From NCBI RefSeq assembly GCF_017168235.1, contig NZ_JABFAO010000004.1:717895-781894 (forward strand): a stretch of DNA of 64,000 nucleotides. The letters run 5' to 3'. Position numbers and translations under genes: made by a program. Below are positions 24,435 through 32,287 of the stretch, in pieces; the first letter of the stretch is position 1, and every line of letters starts with the position of its first letter. The notes under the pieces are model-generated. The model saw only the letters and a program-made list of their open reading frames with translations. It did not search any database and was not told the origin of the DNA. This DNA is from Rhodococcus sp. KRD197 (GTDB taxonomy: Bacteria > Actinomycetota > Actinomycetes > Mycobacteriales > Mycobacteriaceae).

Positions 24435-27400
24435 ATGGGGTGGAACGAGGGTCCGCCGACGTGGTCGGAGATGGAGCGTGTTCTCTCCGGCCGTCCCGCG
24501 CGCCCGAAACCCGACATCATCGGCGACGGTGGAGACAGTCCGGCATGGTCGCGCAAACGCGGAGCGTACGAGAGAAGTGCGATCTCGACCGAGCCGTCGA
24601 CGGTTGCGTACGCGGAGCTACATGCGCATTCGGCCTTCAGTTTTCTCGACGGTGCCAGTCATCCTGAAGCAATGGTCGAAGAGGCTGTGCGTCTGGGCCT
24701 GGAAGCGATTGCGATCACCGACCACGACGGCTTCTACGGAGTTGTCAGGTTTGCCGAAGCAGCCAAAGCGCTCGGCATCAAGACCGTGTTCGGCGCTGAG
24801 CTGTCGTTGGGAACGGCCAGATCCAGGGCAGGCGAATTGGATCCGGACGGCACGCATCTGCTCGTGCTCGCGCGTGGGCAGGAGGGGTACCGACGGCTCT
24901 CGCGCGAGATCGCGGCAGCGCATCTGGCGGGCGGCGTGAAAGGAAAACCTCGTTACGATTTCGACGCTCTGTCGGAGGCCGCCGGCGGTCACTGGCAGAT
25001 TCTCACCGGTTGTCGAAAAGGGCATGTACGACGCGCTCTGGCGAGGGACGGCCCCGGTGCTGCAGAGGCGGCATTGGCCGATCTCGTCGACAGATTCGGC
25101 GCCGACCGTGTCACCGTGGAGCTCACCGATCACGGGCTACCGGAGGACGACGAACGCAACGACGCGTTGTTCGAGCTCGCGACTCGGTATCGACTGTCGG
25201 TTGTCGCCACCACCGCGGCGCATTACGCCACACCGGACAGCCGCCACCTGGCGATGGCGATGGCGGCGGTGCGGGCGCGAACGAGCTTGGACGAGGCCTC
25301 TGGATGGTTGTCACCCACCGGTGGGACACACCTACGGTCGGGGGAGGAAATGGCTCGGCTGTTCGGGCACTATCCGGGCGTCGTGGGTGCGGCGGCGGAG
25401 CTCGGTCGGGAGTGCGCATTCGATCTTCGTCTGATCGCACCGCAACTTCCCCCGTTCGACGTACCTGCCGGCCACACGGAGATCAGCTACCTTCGTACGC
25501 TCGCGCAGCGGGGTGCGGAGCGGCGGTACGGTTCGCCGGCCGACCACCCATCGGCGTACGCGCAGATCGAGTACGAACTAGACATCATCGAGAGGTTGCA
25601 CTTCCCGGGCTACTTTCTCGTCGTTCACGACATCGTCGCCTTCTGCAAGGACCGTGACATTCTTTGTCAGGGAAGAGGATCGGCAGCCAACTCGGCGGTG
25701 TGTTTTGCCATCGGAATCACCAATGTCGATCCAGTGGCGAACAAGCTCCTTTTCGAACGTTTCCTGGCCCCCGAACGAGACGGGCCACCGGACATCGATG
25801 TCGATATCGAATCGGACAGACGTGAGGAAGCGATTCAGTACGTCTACGAGAAATACGGCCGCACACACGCTGCGCAGGTCGCAAACGTCATCACCTACCG
25901 TGGAAAGTCCTCGGTTCGTGACATGGCTCGCGCCCTCGGATTCTCGCAGGGGCAGCAGGATGCCTGGAGCAAGCAGGTCACCCGTTGGTCCGGTATCGGT
26001 GAGCAAGAAGATAGCGACATCCCCAAGCCCGTTCTCGAACTGGCTCAGCAGATCGAGGGCTTTCCCCGCCATCTCGGTATCCACTCGGGTGGCATGGTGA
26101 TCTGCGACCGTCCTATCGCCGACGTGTGTCCGGTCGAATGGGCGACGATGGCGAACCGGAGCGTATTGCAGTGGGACAAGGACGATTGCGCTGCAGTCGG
26201 GTTGGTCAAATTCGACATGTTGGGCCTGGGCATGCTGTCGGCTCTGCACTACATGATCGATCTGGTGGACGAGCACAAAGGGATCCGAATCGATCTTGCG
26301 GACATCGATCTGGGCGAGAAAGCCGTCTACGACATGTTGCAGCGGGCCGACTCGGTGGGGGTGTTCCAGGTGGAGTCCCGGGCTCAGATGGCAACGTTGC
26401 CGAGGCTCAAACCCCGGGAGTTCTACGATTTGGTCGTCGAGGTGGCGTTGATCAGGCCCGGTCCCATCCAGGGCGGTTCGGTGCATCCATACATCAAGCG
26501 GCGCAACGGAATCGAACCTGTCACGTTCGATCATCCGTCGCTCGAGAAGGCTCTCGACCGCACGCTCGGAGTGCCGCTCTTCCAGGAGCAGCTCATGCAG
26601 ATGGCCATCGACGTCGCGGGATTCAGCGCTGCCGAAGCCGATCGACTACGTCGGGCAATGGGCTCGAAACGATCCCCGGAAAAAATGAACGAGATGCGTG
26701 GTCGTTTCTACGACGGAATGCGCGAACTGCACGGCATCGTCGGTGAGGCTGCAGATCGCATCTTCGAAAAGCTCTTTGCATTTGCGAATTTCGGTTTTCC
26801 CGAAAGTCATTCACAGAGTTTCGCCTCGCTCGTGTTCTACTCGTCCTGGTTCAAGCTGCATCATCCGGCAGCGTTCTGCGCAGGTCTGTTGAGAGCGCAG
26901 CCGATGGGGTTCTACTCGCCTCAGTCCCTGGTCGCCGATGCGCGAAGACACGGCGTTCAGGTCCACGGCCCCGATGTCAACGTGAGTTCGTGGTACGCGG
27001 ATCTCACCGGAGGTGGTCTCGAGATCCGGATGGGTCTCGCGGACGTGCGGCACATCGGCCAGGATTTCGCCGAGCGTATCGTCGAGGAGCGAGTCCTGGG
27101 CGGTGCGTACACATCCTTCGTCGATCTCGCGGGACGGGTGGAGCTCTCGACCGCCCGAGCCGAATCGCTGGCCACTGCAGGCGCGCTGGGTTGCTTCGGC
27201 ATCACTCGGCGGGAAGCGCTGTGGGCGGCCGGGGCGGCAGCCGGTGAGCGATCGCATCTGCTTCCCGGGCTCGGAGCGTCGACGCGTGCACCTGTCCTTC
27301 CAGGCATGAGTGACTTGGATCTGGCATCGGCGGATGTGTGGGCGACAGGTGTGTCGCCGAACTCGTACCCCACCCAGTTCTTTCGTGAGCAGCTCGATGC

Positions 27401-27719
27401 GCTCGGGGTGCTTCCGGCCGATCGGTTGCTGTCGGTTCCGGACGGAGATCGTGTACTCGTCGGTGGCGCGGTGACTCACCGACAGAGACCGGCTACGGCA
27501 GCCGGTGTCACCTTCGTCAACCTGGAGGACGAGACGGGGATGGTCAACGTCGTCTGCTCAGTAGGTCTGTGGGCGAAGTATCGGAAGCTCGCTCTCACTG
27601 CACCTGCTCTGCTGATCCGCGGGAAAGTACAGAACGCCGAGGGGGCAGTGACCGTGGTCGCCGACCACCTGCAGCTCATGGACCTGCGAGTTCGAACCTC
27701 ATCCCGTGACTTTCGATGA
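24435..27719 (+). CDS. dnaE2: Error-prone DNA polymerase DnaE2
   Basis: 1094-residue C-family polymerase used in SOS translesion synthesis, orthologous to Rv3370c. The PHP domain comes first (YAELHAHSAFSFLDGAS near residue 55, AITDHDGFYG). The polymerase palm carries GRGSAANSAVCFAIGIT and the catalytic acidic motif PPDIDVDIESDRREE near 450. Finger and tandem HhH regions follow, with an OB fold near the end (VNVVCSVGLWAKYRKLA). The protein lacks the C-terminal tau-binding region of DnaE1. It works with ImuA'/ImuB, encoded about 6 kb away; both units carry SOS boxes, so they are expected to be induced together. Confidence 0.97.
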   Translation: MGWNEGPPTWSEMERVLSGRPARPKPDIIGDGGDSPAWSRKRGAYERSAISTEPSTVAYAELHAHSAFSFLDGASHPEAMVEEAVRLGLEAIAITDHDGFYGVVRFAEAAKALGIKTVFGAELSLGTARSRAGELDPDGTHLLVLARGQEGYRRLSREIAAAHLAGGVKGKPRYDFDALSEAAGGHWQILTGCRKGHVRRALARDGPGAAEAALADLVDRFGADRVTVELTDHGLPEDDERNDALFELATRYRLSVVATTAAHYATPDSRHLAMAMAAVRARTSLDEASGWLSPTGGTHLRSGEEMARLFGHYPGVVGAAAELGRECAFDLRLIAPQLPPFDVPAGHTEISYLRTLAQRGAERRYGSPADHPSAYAQIEYELDIIERLHFPGYFLVVHDIVAFCKDRDILCQGRGSAANSAVCFAIGITNVDPVANKLLFERFLAPERDGPPDIDVDIESDRREEAIQYVYEKYGRTHAAQVANVITYRGKSSVRDMARALGFSQGQQDAWSKQVTRWSGIGEQEDSDIPKPVLELAQQIEGFPRHLGIHSGGMVICDRPIADVCPVEWATMANRSVLQWDKDDCAAVGLVKFDMLGLGMLSALHYMIDLVDEHKGIRIDLADIDLGEKAVYDMLQRADSVGVFQVESRAQMATLPRLKPREFYDLVVEVALIRPGPIQGGSVHPYIKRRNGIEPVTFDHPSLEKALDRTLGVPLFQEQLMQMAIDVAGFSAAEADRLRRAMGSKRSPEKMNEMRGRFYDGMRELHGIVGEAADRIFEKLFAFANFGFPESHSQSFASLVFYSSWFKLHHPAAFCAGLLRAQPMGFYSPQSLVADARRHGVQVHGPDVNVSSWYADLTGGGLEIRMGLADVRHIGQDFAERIVEERVLGGAYTSFVDLAGRVELSTARAESLATAGALGCFGITRREALWAAGAAAGERSHLLPGLGASTRAPVLPGMSDLDLASADVWATGVSPNSYPTQFFREQLDALGVLPADRLLSVPDGDRVLVGGAVTHRQRPATAAGVTFVNLEDETGMVNVVCSVGLWAKYRKLALTAPALLIRGKVQNAEGAVTVVADHLQLMDLRVRTSSRDFR

Positions 27720-27750: not shown

Positions 27751-27870
27751 GAGAAGCGGATGGCGGCTGCGTATCCGGACACGGACGTGCTCGTCTTCGG
27801 GCACAGCCATATCCCGGGGGACACGTTCGCGGAGAACGGGCTCGAAATTGACCGGCGTCGAAATTCATGA
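27751..27870 (+). pseudogene. 3' remnant of a metallophosphoesterase gene
   Basis: In the frame starting at 27751 the text MAAAYPDTDVLVFGHSHIP (27760-27816) is the last conserved block (GHxH, metal ligands) of calcineurin-like/YfcE phosphoesterases. After it NGLEIDRRR lacks the usual NPGSPT between NGL and DRRR, which suggests an internal deletion. The upstream motifs (DxH, GDxxD, GNHD) cannot fit, as dnaE2 ends at 27719. It overlaps the 3' end of the next gene. Clear decay product. Confidence 0.75.
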
Positions 27871-28884
27871 CCTGCCGCCCAGGTCGTGGGCACCCGCTGT
27901 CAGCGACTTGTCCCGTGCCTGGTTCACGAGGTCGTGGACCAAGCGAATGATGACATCCATGTCGGTCAGGACACCGGCGCGGAGCTCGTCCTGCTCGGTG
28001 GGCGTCATGGGGGGAGCATGGTCGGTGTCGAGCGACATGACTGTATCGATCTTCGCGCGGAGCGCAGACAGAGGCTCTATCAGCTCCTCACCCGCATCGG
28101 TGATGAGCTTGTTCTGGCGCGCACCGGAGGCGGCGAGCGCCTCCAGCATTTCGTTGAAACTCCTGGCAAGTGAGGCGAGTTCGTCGTCACCGGTGACGGG
28201 TATGGGCTCGAGATGCCCGGTGCGGGCCACCTGTTGGGTGGCGTTCGTCAGTCTTTTCACCGGCCGCAGACCGGTTCGGGCAACAGCAGATCCGGCGATA
28301 CCTGCCAGGGCTACGAGGAACGCGCCGATCATCACCAGCGCCAGAGTCAGTTTGCCGAGGAGGGGAGCATTCGTATCGAGTGACTCGGCGACCATCACCG
28401 TTTCACCGGTGATGGTTCGCTTGGCCGAGATCATGTAGCCCCGTACTTCGCGCAGCGACTCGGCGGCTTCACCGTCGACGACCTGTTGCTCGGGCTCGTC
28501 CAGAACTCCCGTCGCTCCGGTGAAGGGTTGAGATTTTGTGGTGAAGGTGACGAATTCGCCCGAAGAAGTCACCAGCGCCACCTTGATGGCCGGGCCATCG
28601 ACGCTACCGACACCGAAGCCGTAGAAGGTCGAGGGAACTCCGAGGGTTGCACCGGCGATCAGTGCATCGGCGTTGCGGGTGACACGATCGGCAAGCTGAT
28701 CGCGGAGCGCCTGCTCGGCGACGAGATAGATGGCCAGGGCACTCACGGCGACCGCAAGCGTTGCCAAGCTGATCGTCAGGACGCGGATCCGTGTGTGAAG
28801 CGAAACGTTGCGACGAAACGCGAACATCATCGGCCTTGCCCACAGTGGTACAGGTGTCGACGGCGCAGGGGTGGACGATGGCAT
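27865..28884 (-). CDS. Degenerate sensor-kinase-like protein: HAMP, no His, no ATPase domain
   Basis: 339-residue membrane protein with the front half of an MprB/PrrB-type sensor kinase: helix at 34-57, extracytoplasmic domain, helix at 178-202, HAMP at about 200-255, then the dimerisation helix. In that helix the usual phospho-acceptor motif (HELRTPL) reads EELIEPL at 266-272, so His is replaced by Glu. The protein stops about 65 residues later, with no N, G1, F or G2 boxes of an ATPase domain. It cannot act as a kinase alone. It may be a decayed kinase or a signal-modulating partner. No response regulator is visible nearby, but the upstream side is cut at the adapter join. Confidence 0.75.
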   Translation of the reverse strand: MPSSTPAPSTPVPLWARPMMFAFRRNVSLHTRIRVLTISLATLAVAVSALAIYLVAEQALRDQLADRVTRNADALIAGATLGVPSTFYGFGVGSVDGPAIKVALVTSSGEFVTFTTKSQPFTGATGVLDEPEQQVVDGEAAESLREVRGYMISAKRTITGETVMVAESLDTNAPLLGKLTLALVMIGAFLVALAGIAGSAVARTGLRPVKRLTNATQQVARTGHLEPIPVTGDDELASLARSFNEMLEALAASGARQNKLITDAGEELIEPLSALRAKIDTVMSLDTDHAPPMTPTEQDELRAGVLTDMDVIIRLVHDLVNQARDKSLTAGAHDLGGRS

Positions 28885-28959: not shown

Positions 28960-29136
28960 TTATTTGACGTCGTCGTCCCCGGAGCCTTCGTGGTCGCTGG
29001 TGGCGATGGGTGCCCGGCGTGCCTGTTCGAGGACTTCGGTGCTCTCGCCGCCATGTGTGCCGGGACCGACGTGGGCTTCGGCGCGCATCCGGTCGACCAT
29101 GTGCGGGTAATGCAACTCGAACGCCGGACGCTCGGA
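28960..29136 (-). CDS. 3' fragment of an unidentified gene, cut by the adapter join
   Basis: Minus-strand open frame ending with TAA at 28960-28962. The last ~59 residues ([18 protein letters not shown] and on, ending in a Gly/Asp-rich [12 protein letters not shown] tail) have coding-like composition with varied residues, unlike the Arg/Ser-rich shadow frames here. The N-terminal part is missing because sequence upstream of about 29,137 is adapter. Family not recognised. It would be the upstream neighbour of the degenerate sensor gene, 75 bp away. Confidence 0.5.
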
Positions 29137-29206
29137 ACGGATACCCCATCCTCTAAGATGTCAGCGAGCCTTATCGTCGGCAGCGACAGATGTGTATAAG
29201 CGACAG
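29137..29206 (+). other. Illumina Nextera adapter (P5-like, i5 index, Read-1 end): assembly artefact
   Basis: 29174-29206 matches the Nextera Read-1 adapter with two mismatches: TCGTCGGCAGCG, then AGATGTGTATAAG, then CGACAG where GAGACAG is expected (the Tn5 mosaic end). The 8 bases just before, 29166-29173, are GAGCCTTA, a known Nextera i5 index (S521 as I recall it). The 29 bases before that agree with P5 at 16 of 29 positions, including ATAC and AGAT. This order (P5, index, Read-1) is that of a sequencing library, not of a genome. Sequence on the two sides should be treated as separate pieces. Confidence 0.93.
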
Positions 29207-29454
29207 CGGTAGTAGTCGGCGTTGATGCTCGAGTACGCACTCATCGAGGCGGGTAGTACGTCTGCGGCGTAGACCGCGTCGACCGGGCACGCTTCTTCGC
29301 AGGCCCCACAATCGATGCACCGCGCCGGATCGATGTAGAGCATTTCGGTACTGGCGTAACCGGGTTCGTCCGGGGTGGGGTGGATACACGCGGCCGGACA
29401 CACGTCCGCGCAGGTGGCGTCGTTGCAACAGTTCTGGGTGATCACATACGTCAT
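29207..29454 (-). pseudogene. fprB: FprB-like ferredoxin domain, truncated by the adapter
   Basis: The first 83 codons encode a bacterial ferredoxin: TQNCCNDATCADVCPAACIHP and CIDCGACEEACPVDA give the ligands for two iron-sulfur clusters (7Fe or 8Fe type). The start MTYVITQNCCND and the segment PTPDEPGYASTEMLYIDP closely match the N-terminal domain of ferredoxin-NADP reductase FprB (Rv0886), where an FAD/NADPH domain follows. Here the frame runs into adapter at 29206 and ends at TGA 29161-29163 with 15 adapter-encoded residues. The true gene is probably intact in the organism. ATGA overlap with the oxidoreductase gene upstream indicates one operon. Confidence 0.8.
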
Positions 29455-31601
29455 CGAGCGCTCACCACAACCGGGATTCCGTTGAAGTAGGCGTTCCCCG
29501 ACGGCATGTCGATCTCGCTGGCGTCGGTGGGTGTGAGCTGGTTGTAGCTCACACCGCCCGCGGCCACCGCCGTGGACCAGGTGCCGGCGTGACCCCATCC
29601 CTGGGTGAGGCCCAGGCAGCCGACGAAGACTTCCTCGGTCACCTCGACAGGAACCTCGATGTTCCCCCACGGCGAGGTGATCGATACGACGTCGCGGTCG
29701 TGCACCCCTGCTGCTGCGGCATCGTCCGGATGCATCTTCGCTCGGCACTTGCGTAGCCCGGTCATCAGTTTGGGCACATTGTGCAGCCACGAGTTGTGGG
29801 ATCGCAGTTCCCGGATGCTGAACAGTCGCAATGGATATTCGCTTCCGGACGGGTCGGGGACAGCCAATCGCCGGGCTTCGGAGAGCATTTCCGGCGAGCC
29901 CAACTGGATGCGTCCGTCGCGGGTGTGGATCTTCTTTCCGAGCACGCCGGTGGGGCAATGATCGGCGAGTTTGATCGCGCCCTGATGGTCCAGCAGCTTT
30001 TTGCGGTTGATCCCTCGGGGTCGGAGCCCGAACAGATCGCCATGGCGGCCCACGCGGGTGAGCAGATCTATCGAAAACGAGGGCGGAATCCGCACTCCCA
30101 GCTTGCCCAGCCACTGCGCACCCGGCATCGGGGACGGCACCACGCCCAGTTCGCGCGCGAGCTGATCGATGATCCACCAGTCATCGCGTGCTTGTCCGCG
30201 GGCCGGGACCACCGGGCGCACCCATTGCGCGTTCGGCACCGTGGATTGAGCCTGGGTGAACGCCGGCATCTGTTCGCGTTCGAGCCACAGTGACGGCGGC
30301 AGAATCCAGTGTGCGTGCCGTGAGGTCTCGGTGATGTACGGGTCCAGCGACACCATCAGTTCGAGCGTCTCGAGTGCGGTGGCAGTCTCGACGGTTCCGG
30401 GTCCGCTGGTGACGACGTTGCTGGACATGGCGATCAGCGCCCGCAACTGTCCGCGACCGGGAGTGGTGATTTCCTTGGCCAGGCAAGCCACCGGCGCCTG
30501 CCCGTTGACCTCTGGGGCGCCCTCGACCCGGGTGCGCCATCGGCCACGCCCGGACACTCCGAGCAGCTCGGCGAAACCTTCGATATCGGCCATCGGATCA
30601 CCCAGGACCATGCCGCCGCGTCGATCGACGTTGCCGGTGACGACCGACAGGGCGTCGAGCAGGAATTTGGTCAATGTCGAGAACTTGCCGAGCGATGCCC
30701 CGCAACGCCCGTACGCGCAGGCAGTGGGCGCTGCGGCCATGTCGCGCGCAAGCTGTGTGATGGTCGCGGCGTCGATGCCCGTGCGCGCGGCAGCGGTTTC
30801 GAGGTCGAACAACCGGGCCAGCTCACGTAACCCGTCGATGCCGGCGGTCTGTGTGCGCACCGCGTGCTGATCGATCAGGTCCTCCCGGAACATCACGTCC
30901 AGCATCGCTCCCAGCAGCCATGGGTCCGCGCCCGGGCGAATCGGAACATGCTCGAACAGTGTGGCTGTTTCGGTGCGGCGCGGATCCACGACCACGACCT
31001 GGCCTCCGCGTGCGGGGATGTCGAGCAATACGTCGCGGATCCGTCCGGTCGTCACCAGACTTCCGTGCGACACAACCGGATTGGCGCCGAGGATGAGCGC
31101 GAAATGGGTGTCGGCGAAATCGGGCAGTAGGTTGATCGCCGTTGCGCCGTACATGATGTGCGCAGCGGCCCAGTAATTGTTGACATCGATCGATGCCGAC
31201 GAGTAGTGGTGCTTGGTTCCCAACGCCGCGGCGAGACCCACCGTGGTGACTGCGGCGGCGTAGTTCCAGGCGATGGGATTGCCCCACAGCACACCGATGG
31301 CTTCGTTGCCGTGCTCGCGCTGCTCCCGGCGCAGCCTCGCGCCGATGTCGTCGAACGCCTCGCGCCAGCTCGCGCGCGCGAAGGTGCCGTCGGGCAGTCG
31401 TCGCATCGGATACAGAACTCGGTCCGGATCGGTGACCACGTTGTGGAACTGGACGCCCTTGGAACACGCAAAACCCCGTGACGCCGGGTGATCGGGATCG
31501 GGCCGTAGCTCCAGCACACGATCGGCCTGGACCGTTGCGATCAACCCGCACGACGCTTCGCAGATTCCGCAGAAGGTCTTCTTCTCCACTGTCGCGGTCA
31601 T
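29451..31601 (-). CDS. Molybdopterin-dependent oxidoreductase (formate dehydrogenase/nitrate reductase family)
   Basis: 716-residue cytoplasmic enzyme of the DMSO-reductase/formate-dehydrogenase superfamily. N-terminal [4Fe-4S] ligands are Cys11, Cys14, Cys18 and Cys46 (CGICEASC...GFACSKG). The molybdopterin-binding domains follow (GVLWGNPIAWNYAAAV, ILGANPVVSHG, VVVDPRRTETA), with a GRCGASLG segment at the position near the metal ligand. The C-terminal domain has SHNSWLHN and NQLTPTDASEIDMPSGNA. No Tat signal. The FprB-like gene overlaps its 3' end by 4 bp and probably supplies electrons from or to NADP(H). Substrate cannot be told from sequence. Divergent from a TetR regulator. Confidence 0.88.
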   Translation of the reverse strand: MTATVEKKTFCGICEASCGLIATVQADRVLELRPDPDHPASRGFACSKGVQFHNVVTDPDRVLYPMRRLPDGTFARASWREAFDDIGARLRREQREHGNEAIGVLWGNPIAWNYAAAVTTVGLAAALGTKHHYSSASIDVNNYWAAAHIMYGATAINLLPDFADTHFALILGANPVVSHGSLVTTGRIRDVLLDIPARGGQVVVVDPRRTETATLFEHVPIRPGADPWLLGAMLDVMFREDLIDQHAVRTQTAGIDGLRELARLFDLETAAARTGIDAATITQLARDMAAAPTACAYGRCGASLGKFSTLTKFLLDALSVVTGNVDRRGGMVLGDPMADIEGFAELLGVSGRGRWRTRVEGAPEVNGQAPVACLAKEITTPGRGQLRALIAMSSNVVTSGPGTVETATALETLELMVSLDPYITETSRHAHWILPPSLWLEREQMPAFTQAQSTVPNAQWVRPVVPARGQARDDWWIIDQLARELGVVPSPMPGAQWLGKLGVRIPPSFSIDLLTRVGRHGDLFGLRPRGINRKKLLDHQGAIKLADHCPTGVLGKKIHTRDGRIQLGSPEMLSEARRLAVPDPSGSEYPLRLFSIRELRSHNSWLHNVPKLMTGLRKCRAKMHPDDAAAAGVHDRDVVSITSPWGNIEVPVEVTEEVFVGCLGLTQGWGHAGTWSTAVAAGGVSYNQLTPTDASEIDMPSGNAYFNGIPVVVSAR

Positions 31602-31620
31602 TGGGCCACACTCACCCTTC

Positions 31621-31645
31621 TTATTCGAACTAGGTGTTCGATTAA
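31621..31645. promoter_or_regulatory. Operator between the oxidoreductase and TetR genes
   Basis: TTATTCGAAC-TAGGT-GTTCGATTAA: 10-bp arms, one mismatch. It covers the -35 region of the tetR promoter and lies 20 bp before the oxidoreductase start, so one repressor could control both. Its 5-bp centre makes it one base too long for a LexA box. Confidence 0.6.
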
Positions 31646-31661
31646 TGGTTCGGACAGTATG

Positions 31662-31667
31662 TACGAT
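31662..31667 (+). promoter_or_regulatory. Candidate -10 of tetR (TACGAT)
   Basis: Ends 8 nt before the GTG at 31676; the operator at 31621-31645 overlaps the -35 position. Confidence 0.4.
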
Positions 31668-31675
31668 CAACGACT

Positions 31676-32287
31676 GTGACCGCAACGCCCCAACGTCGCC
31701 GCACAAGCACCGAAGCAAGAATCCTGCAGGCGACTACCACGCTGCTGAGCGACGGGCAACGCTACGCGGAGCTGCCAGTGGAACGAATCCTGCAGCTGGC
31801 CAAAGTGTCTCGATCCACCTTCTACCAATGGTTCCCGGACAAGACCGCTTTGATCCAGCGCGTCGCCCAGCCCGGAGTGGAGGAGTTCCTCGCCGCTTCG
31901 GACTCGTGGTGGACCCGCAGCGACGGAGGGTCCGCGGATACCCTGGCCGACATCGTCACCCAGATGCTGGCCCTGGCCAGGGCCAGCGCGCCCATCTGGC
32001 GTGCCTATCTGGAAACCGCGTCCTCCGACAGCGAGTTCGGCGCCACCCTGCGCGAAGCCACCGAGACCTACACCCGCAAGATGGCCGCCCGCCTCGACCG
32101 CGAACGACACGACGGGCTCGTCCCGGCCGAGGTCGACACGAGCCAGACGGCACGATTCATCGTCACCACCATGCGCGCGAGCTTCATCGAGGCCCTCACC
32201 GCCGGTCACACCACCGAGGACGAGCGCTTCGCGCGCACCCTGGGCAGAGTGTTCTGGTTGTCGATGTATCGCCCGATCGCACCGTAG
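31676..32287 (+). CDS. TetR-family regulator, divergent from molybdopterin oxidoreductase
   Basis: 203-residue TetR repressor. The N-terminal HTH (about 12-60) has ILQATTTLLSDG, LAKVSRSTFYQWFPDKTALI, the typical recognition helix with FYxxF. The C-terminal ligand domain is all-helical with no ligand clue. It is divergently transcribed from the oxidoreductase operon with a palindrome between, the classic layout of a local repressor that also controls itself. GTG start, leaderless-like. Confidence 0.9.
   Translation: MTATPQRRRTSTEARILQATTTLLSDGQRYAELPVERILQLAKVSRSTFYQWFPDKTALIQRVAQPGVEEFLAASDSWWTRSDGGSADTLADIVTQMLALARASAPIWRAYLETASSDSEFGATLREATETYTRKMAARLDRERHDGLVPAEVDTSQTARFIVTTMRASFIEALTAGHTTEDERFARTLGRVFWLSMYRPIAP

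Follow-up and report, generated by a model that had tools for sequence, protein, structure and literature searches.

The window, a stretch of 64,000 nucleotides, corresponds to C36:717895-781894 of a draft assembly of 5,564,651 bases in 100 contigs. In its middle part, two blocks of genes meet at a short piece of sequencing-library DNA (Table 1). The left block contains a gene of the DNA polymerase III alpha family, which we take to be dnaE2, followed by a HAMP-domain sensor-like gene and by the end of a cytochrome c oxidase subunit I gene, ctaD2. The right block begins with the N-terminal part of a reductase gene, presumably FprB-like (we keep the name used in the initial annotation), and continues with a molybdopterin oxidoreductase gene. 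Both genes that face the library DNA are cut, ctaD2 on the left and the FprB-like gene on the right, exactly as the initial annotation had claimed.

The two gene pieces are short. A Pfam search with the 63-amino-acid ctaD end gave no match, and neither Pfam nor NCBIfam returned a match for the 82-amino-acid ferredoxin piece; hence, the names were taken from longer copies. The name ctaD comes from the copy on contig C9 of the same draft, which passes the NCBIfam cut-offs both for aa3-type oxidase subunit I and for CtaD, and the end present in the window matches the ctaD of related genomes from residue 4 of the 63-amino-acid query onward. The whole FprB-like protein of the related genome G042 carries the Fer4 and Pyr_redox_2 domains, and the piece found on contig C1 of the draft carries Pyr_redox_2 without Fer4.

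Table 1. Features on the two sides of the library DNA in the window, with the basis of each assignment.
Feature	Position	Strand	Basis
dnaE2-like gene, apparently genuine left block	24435..27719	+	Pfam DNA_pol3_alpha and others
HAMP-domain sensor-like gene, apparently genuine left block	27865..28884	-	Pfam HAMP
Final 60 codons of ctaD2 with its stop codon, cut at the 5' side	28960..29143	-	match to ctaD of relatives
127-mer of the window that recurs at the end of C9 and in C5; likely assembly-graph branch point	29017..29143	-	exact match
22 bases, perhaps a degraded P5 tail (11/22)	29144..29165	+	comparison with P5
i5 index GAGCCTTA (primer S521)	29166..29173	+	exact match and published primer list
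Nextera Read-1/Tn5 mosaic-end adapter	29174..29206	+	31/33 bases; oligo published
Ferredoxin-like N-terminal part of FprB-like reductase, cut at the 3' side	29207..29452	-	orthologues whole in G042 and G037
Molybdopterin oxidoreductase gene, genuine right block	29451..31718	-	Pfam Molybdopterin

Library DNA at the site and elsewhere in the draft

The bases 29174-29206 are identical to the Nextera Read-1/Tn5 mosaic-end oligonucleotide at 31 of 33 positions, with two mismatches, as the initial annotation had stated, and this is the sole match to the 33-base oligonucleotide in the window at up to three mismatches. None of 100 dinucleotide shuffles contained such a match at the same threshold. The matching stretch comprises both the Read-1 tail and the 19-base mosaic end, and a library index lies directly outside the tail: the standard i5 index that had been noticed in front of the adapter is indeed present, as an exact GAGCCTTA at 29166-29173, and does not recur exactly anywhere else in the window, whether on the forward or on the reverse strand. 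The Read-1 oligonucleotide is given as Tn5ME-A in PMC4248319, and the primer list of PMC11620474 gives the layout of S521 as P5, then GAGCCTTA, then TCGTCGGCAGCGTC. The order at the site, with the index followed by the Read-1 oligonucleotide, agrees with the S521 primer as listed there. Since both the letters and the order of 29166-29206 match the S521 and Read-1 oligonucleotides as these sources give them, the site agrees with a known library oligonucleotide. Two library parts, the index and the Read-1 adapter, are certain at the site. Other adapters were found to be absent: the best window matches had 13 mismatches in 33 bases for both TruSeq adapters, 7 in 24 for P7, 21 in 45 for SMRTbell and 11 in 28 for the ONT adapter.

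The same cannot be said of P5. The initial annotation had read 29137-29165 as a blurred P5; its count of 16 identical bases out of 29 is correct, but the identification is doubtful, because 7 or 8 of these 29 bases belong to ctaD. Positions 29137-29143 lie inside the ctaD 127-mer that recurs letter for letter in C5 and at the end of C9, and position 29144 is additionally common to the window and C9. The count is also weak evidence in itself: 0.096% of the ungapped window positions, counted over both strands, score as high as 29137-29165 or higher against P5, and the gapped score of 4 is equalled by 33% of 3000 random stretches. A clean P5 was thus not upheld, with the gapped score at background and part of the stretch being ctaD. 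The bases outside the shared ctaD sequence agree with P5 at 11 of 22 positions (29144-29165, binomial p ~0.01) or at 10 of 21 (29145-29165, p ~0.02), and 29144-29165 perhaps stem from a degraded read of P5 or from other spurious sequence. In the argument that three library parts stand here in library order, two parts therefore hold and the third was overstated, since the supposed P5 is partly ctaD; P5 as a third part is doubtful.

The 19-base mosaic end, searched for at up to two mismatches, occurs six times in the draft, and the backward-read control sequence does not occur in it. The adapter reading of the window is strengthened by the five copies outside it, of which two again follow this i5 index. 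Three of the six copies lie at most 18 bases from a 100-base N gap, at 1501-1519 of each of the extracted loci L001 (C2), L002 (C5) and L004 (C14), and the one on C14 is accompanied by the Read-2 tail. The remaining three, that of the window included, are joined without N, have 14, 13 and 14 of the 14 bases of the Read-1 tail, and follow the same i5 index, which is exact in two cases and has one mismatch in the third. Taken together, the six copies, their tails and the index indicate that a single library left adapter at several places in the draft. A conserved feature of the genus is ruled out, and the occurrence in related genomes that the initial annotation had asked about was not observed: at up to three mismatches, the 33-base adapter is found in none of the 36 other genomes of the genus and is present only in this one of the 37.

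Two of the N-free copies lie outside the window. On C5 (C5:1182-1214, L003 1182-1214), the Read-1 adapter with one mismatch stands behind GAGCCTTA without N, and the frame to its left, which we take to be peptide-synthetase-like, stops at the adapter. On C25 (C25:53059-53091, L006 1487-1519), the Read-1 adapter with two mismatches stands behind GGGCCTTA, again without N; the left frame has presumably a signal-peptide-like start and the right frame a membrane-anchor-like end, and the two may be one surface-protein gene. These readings of L003 and L006 suggest that adapter in this draft may mark false joins as well as filled gaps.

Neighbours of the two cut genes

Relatives possess two ctaD genes. 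One of them, ctaD1, adjoins serB (named via NCBIfam) in all four fetched loci (G017, G001, G006 and G004), and the other, ctaD2, adjoins the HAMP gene and dnaE2 in all five (G001, G004, G006, G003 and G010), a count that is kept apart from a sixth candidate, G018:C636. The left block of the window is this second ctaD locus and appears genuine up to 29143. Contig C9 terminates inside ctaD; its final 127 bases are identical to window positions 29017-29143 and to C5:551380-551506, and between the window and C9 the identity extends to 128 bases. De Bruijn assemblers run with k = 127 produce exact overlaps of this length, 127 bases, where the graph branches. The genes that lie upstream of ctaD on C9 have their counterparts upstream of ctaD2 in G001, G004 and G006, and the comparison of these genes with the four ctaD1 loci gave no match except ctaD itself (E <= 1e-20, >55% identity). 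From the 128-bp overlap and the matches of the upstream genes, C9 is likely the true neighbour of window position 29143.

Contigs of two relatives, G003 and G010, likewise begin inside ctaD2. The two copies of ctaD in G006, a single contig, show 99.7% identity over 1671 bases and include an uninterrupted identical stretch of 1112 bases. Such near-identity is not general, since the two copies of G001, also a single contig, are only 93.1% identical and their longest exact run is 125 bases.

On the right, the molybdopterin oxidoreductase gene was found in two of the 36 other genomes of the genus, G037 and G042, at E <= 1e-150, and in both of them a whole FprB-like gene adjoins it. With the G042 FprB-like protein as a query, the window covers residues 1-86, the last few of which reach into the adapter. 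The best match in the genome under study itself is C1:475989-477326, which covers residues 99-539 at 64% identity; two full-length FprB-like paralogues, on C91 (50%) and C36 (46%), are weaker matches. C1 is 477,333 bases long, so that the FprB-like piece reaches the contig end. Approximately 15 FprB-like residues are on neither the window nor C1, an estimate that assumes equal loop length. As the best match to the missing part reaches the end of C1, this contig is likely the true neighbour of window position 29207. The genes of C1 beyond the FprB-like piece gave no match to the fetched G042 and G037 loci at E <= 1e-20, and the FprB-like gene is consequently the one link to C1.

Interpretation of the join

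For both cut genes, the remainder is located at a contig end elsewhere in the draft, on C9 for ctaD2 and on C1 for the FprB-like gene, and the join between the left and right blocks is therefore likely false. Both flanks have different neighbours in relatives and elsewhere in the draft. The doubt of the initial annotation about the adjacency of the two blocks is in this way supported, and the comparison with relatives that it had suggested showed each gene to be whole there and in other surroundings. We regard it as nearly certain that 29166-29206 is Nextera library DNA left in the draft, situated at what is likely a false join of two stretches of the chromosome. The site is an ordinary assembly artefact rather than a biological feature.

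The adapter letters, the common 127-mer and the presence of the remaining gene parts at other contig ends can be read directly from the assembly, and the most likely course of events may be proposed as follows. Short inserts would have been sequenced through into adapter that was not trimmed, by which the contig that stops within the FprB-like gene would have gained the Read-1 sequence, the index and perhaps a P5 tail at its end. The other contig would have started at a graph branch in ctaD, which the genome likely has in two nearly identical copies, and scaffolding or gap closing would then have fused the adapter-tailed end to it. We infer the part played by the joining program and by the reads responsible, and likewise that C9 and C1 are the true neighbours.

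A real rearrangement or exchange between ctaD2 and the FprB-like gene, splitting both, with the adapter filling a true breakpoint that was hard to assemble, would likewise put the remainders of both cut genes on C9 and C1. The flanks at L006, which may be one gene, suggest moreover that adapter can stand in a gap between correctly ordered sequences. However, the left cut coincides exactly with the start of the 127-mer that two other contigs also contain, which resembles a graph branch, public contigs of two relatives also begin inside ctaD2, and the draft has five more adapter places, which together make such an exchange very improbable. Slightly less probable still is a true adjacency of the two blocks, in the correct order, in which only an intervening stretch was lost, with the adapter in its place. 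Gaps beside adapter do occur elsewhere in the draft, but this explanation would require the whole of C9 and C1 to be inserted between the blocks; C9 genes, not the FprB-like gene, precede ctaD2 in all three of the relatives' loci that reach upstream, and the FprB-like gene is whole in both G042 and G037. The mosaic end of 19 bases is derived from the ends of Tn5, as described in PMC4248319, yet a natural Tn5/IS50-type or engineered mini-Tn5 insertion has a negligible probability and was rejected: instead of an end free of synthetic library tail, the mosaic end follows 14 bases of synthetic Read-1 tail, which themselves follow the 8 bases of a library index, a Read-2 tail is present at another place in the draft, and there is no transposon body at the site.

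Comparable artefacts and use of the record

The false join proposed here can be set beside two known kinds of artefact. The first is untrimmed Nextera adapter in public drafts, where the same oligonucleotide has at least 126 exact matches in at least 120 stretches of a species-representative collection. Among the matches listed, it lies at most 100 bases from a contig end in 121 of 126, and the largest distance to a contig end is 466 bases. Unlike in those cases, the adapter here lies ~747 kb inside a contig of 1.21 Mb, as expected of a bad join. The second is short-read misassembly at a near-identical repeat. The likeness consists in contigs that meet at ctaD with an exact 127-mer, in the contigs of G003 and G010 that start in ctaD2, and in the near-identical copies of G006; in contrast, the wrong partner was joined here via adapter and not via the repeat itself, and the ctaD copies of G001 are merely 93% identical.

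For users of the record, the gene order across 29143-29207 is likely not biology, and gene neighbourhoods drawn across this point are unreliable. Open reading frames that cross the adapter are spurious, such as the one of 338 amino acids at 29161-30177. Both ctaD2 and the FprB-like gene look truncated in the record, though fitting parts of both sit on other contigs. Those who use it for synteny, operons or gene loss should split the record here and inspect the other five adapter sites.

The serB-linked ctaD end on C5 (L037 9840-10010; C5:551339-551509) is cut at the same 127-mer without adapter and is preceded by an HNH-endonuclease-like gene; this cut is likely another bad join. The serB-linked ctaD of G004 (L042 9552-10699; G004:C5) aligns with the C9 protein over residues 22-219 and 435-578 only, and its missing middle is perhaps another collapsed repeat.
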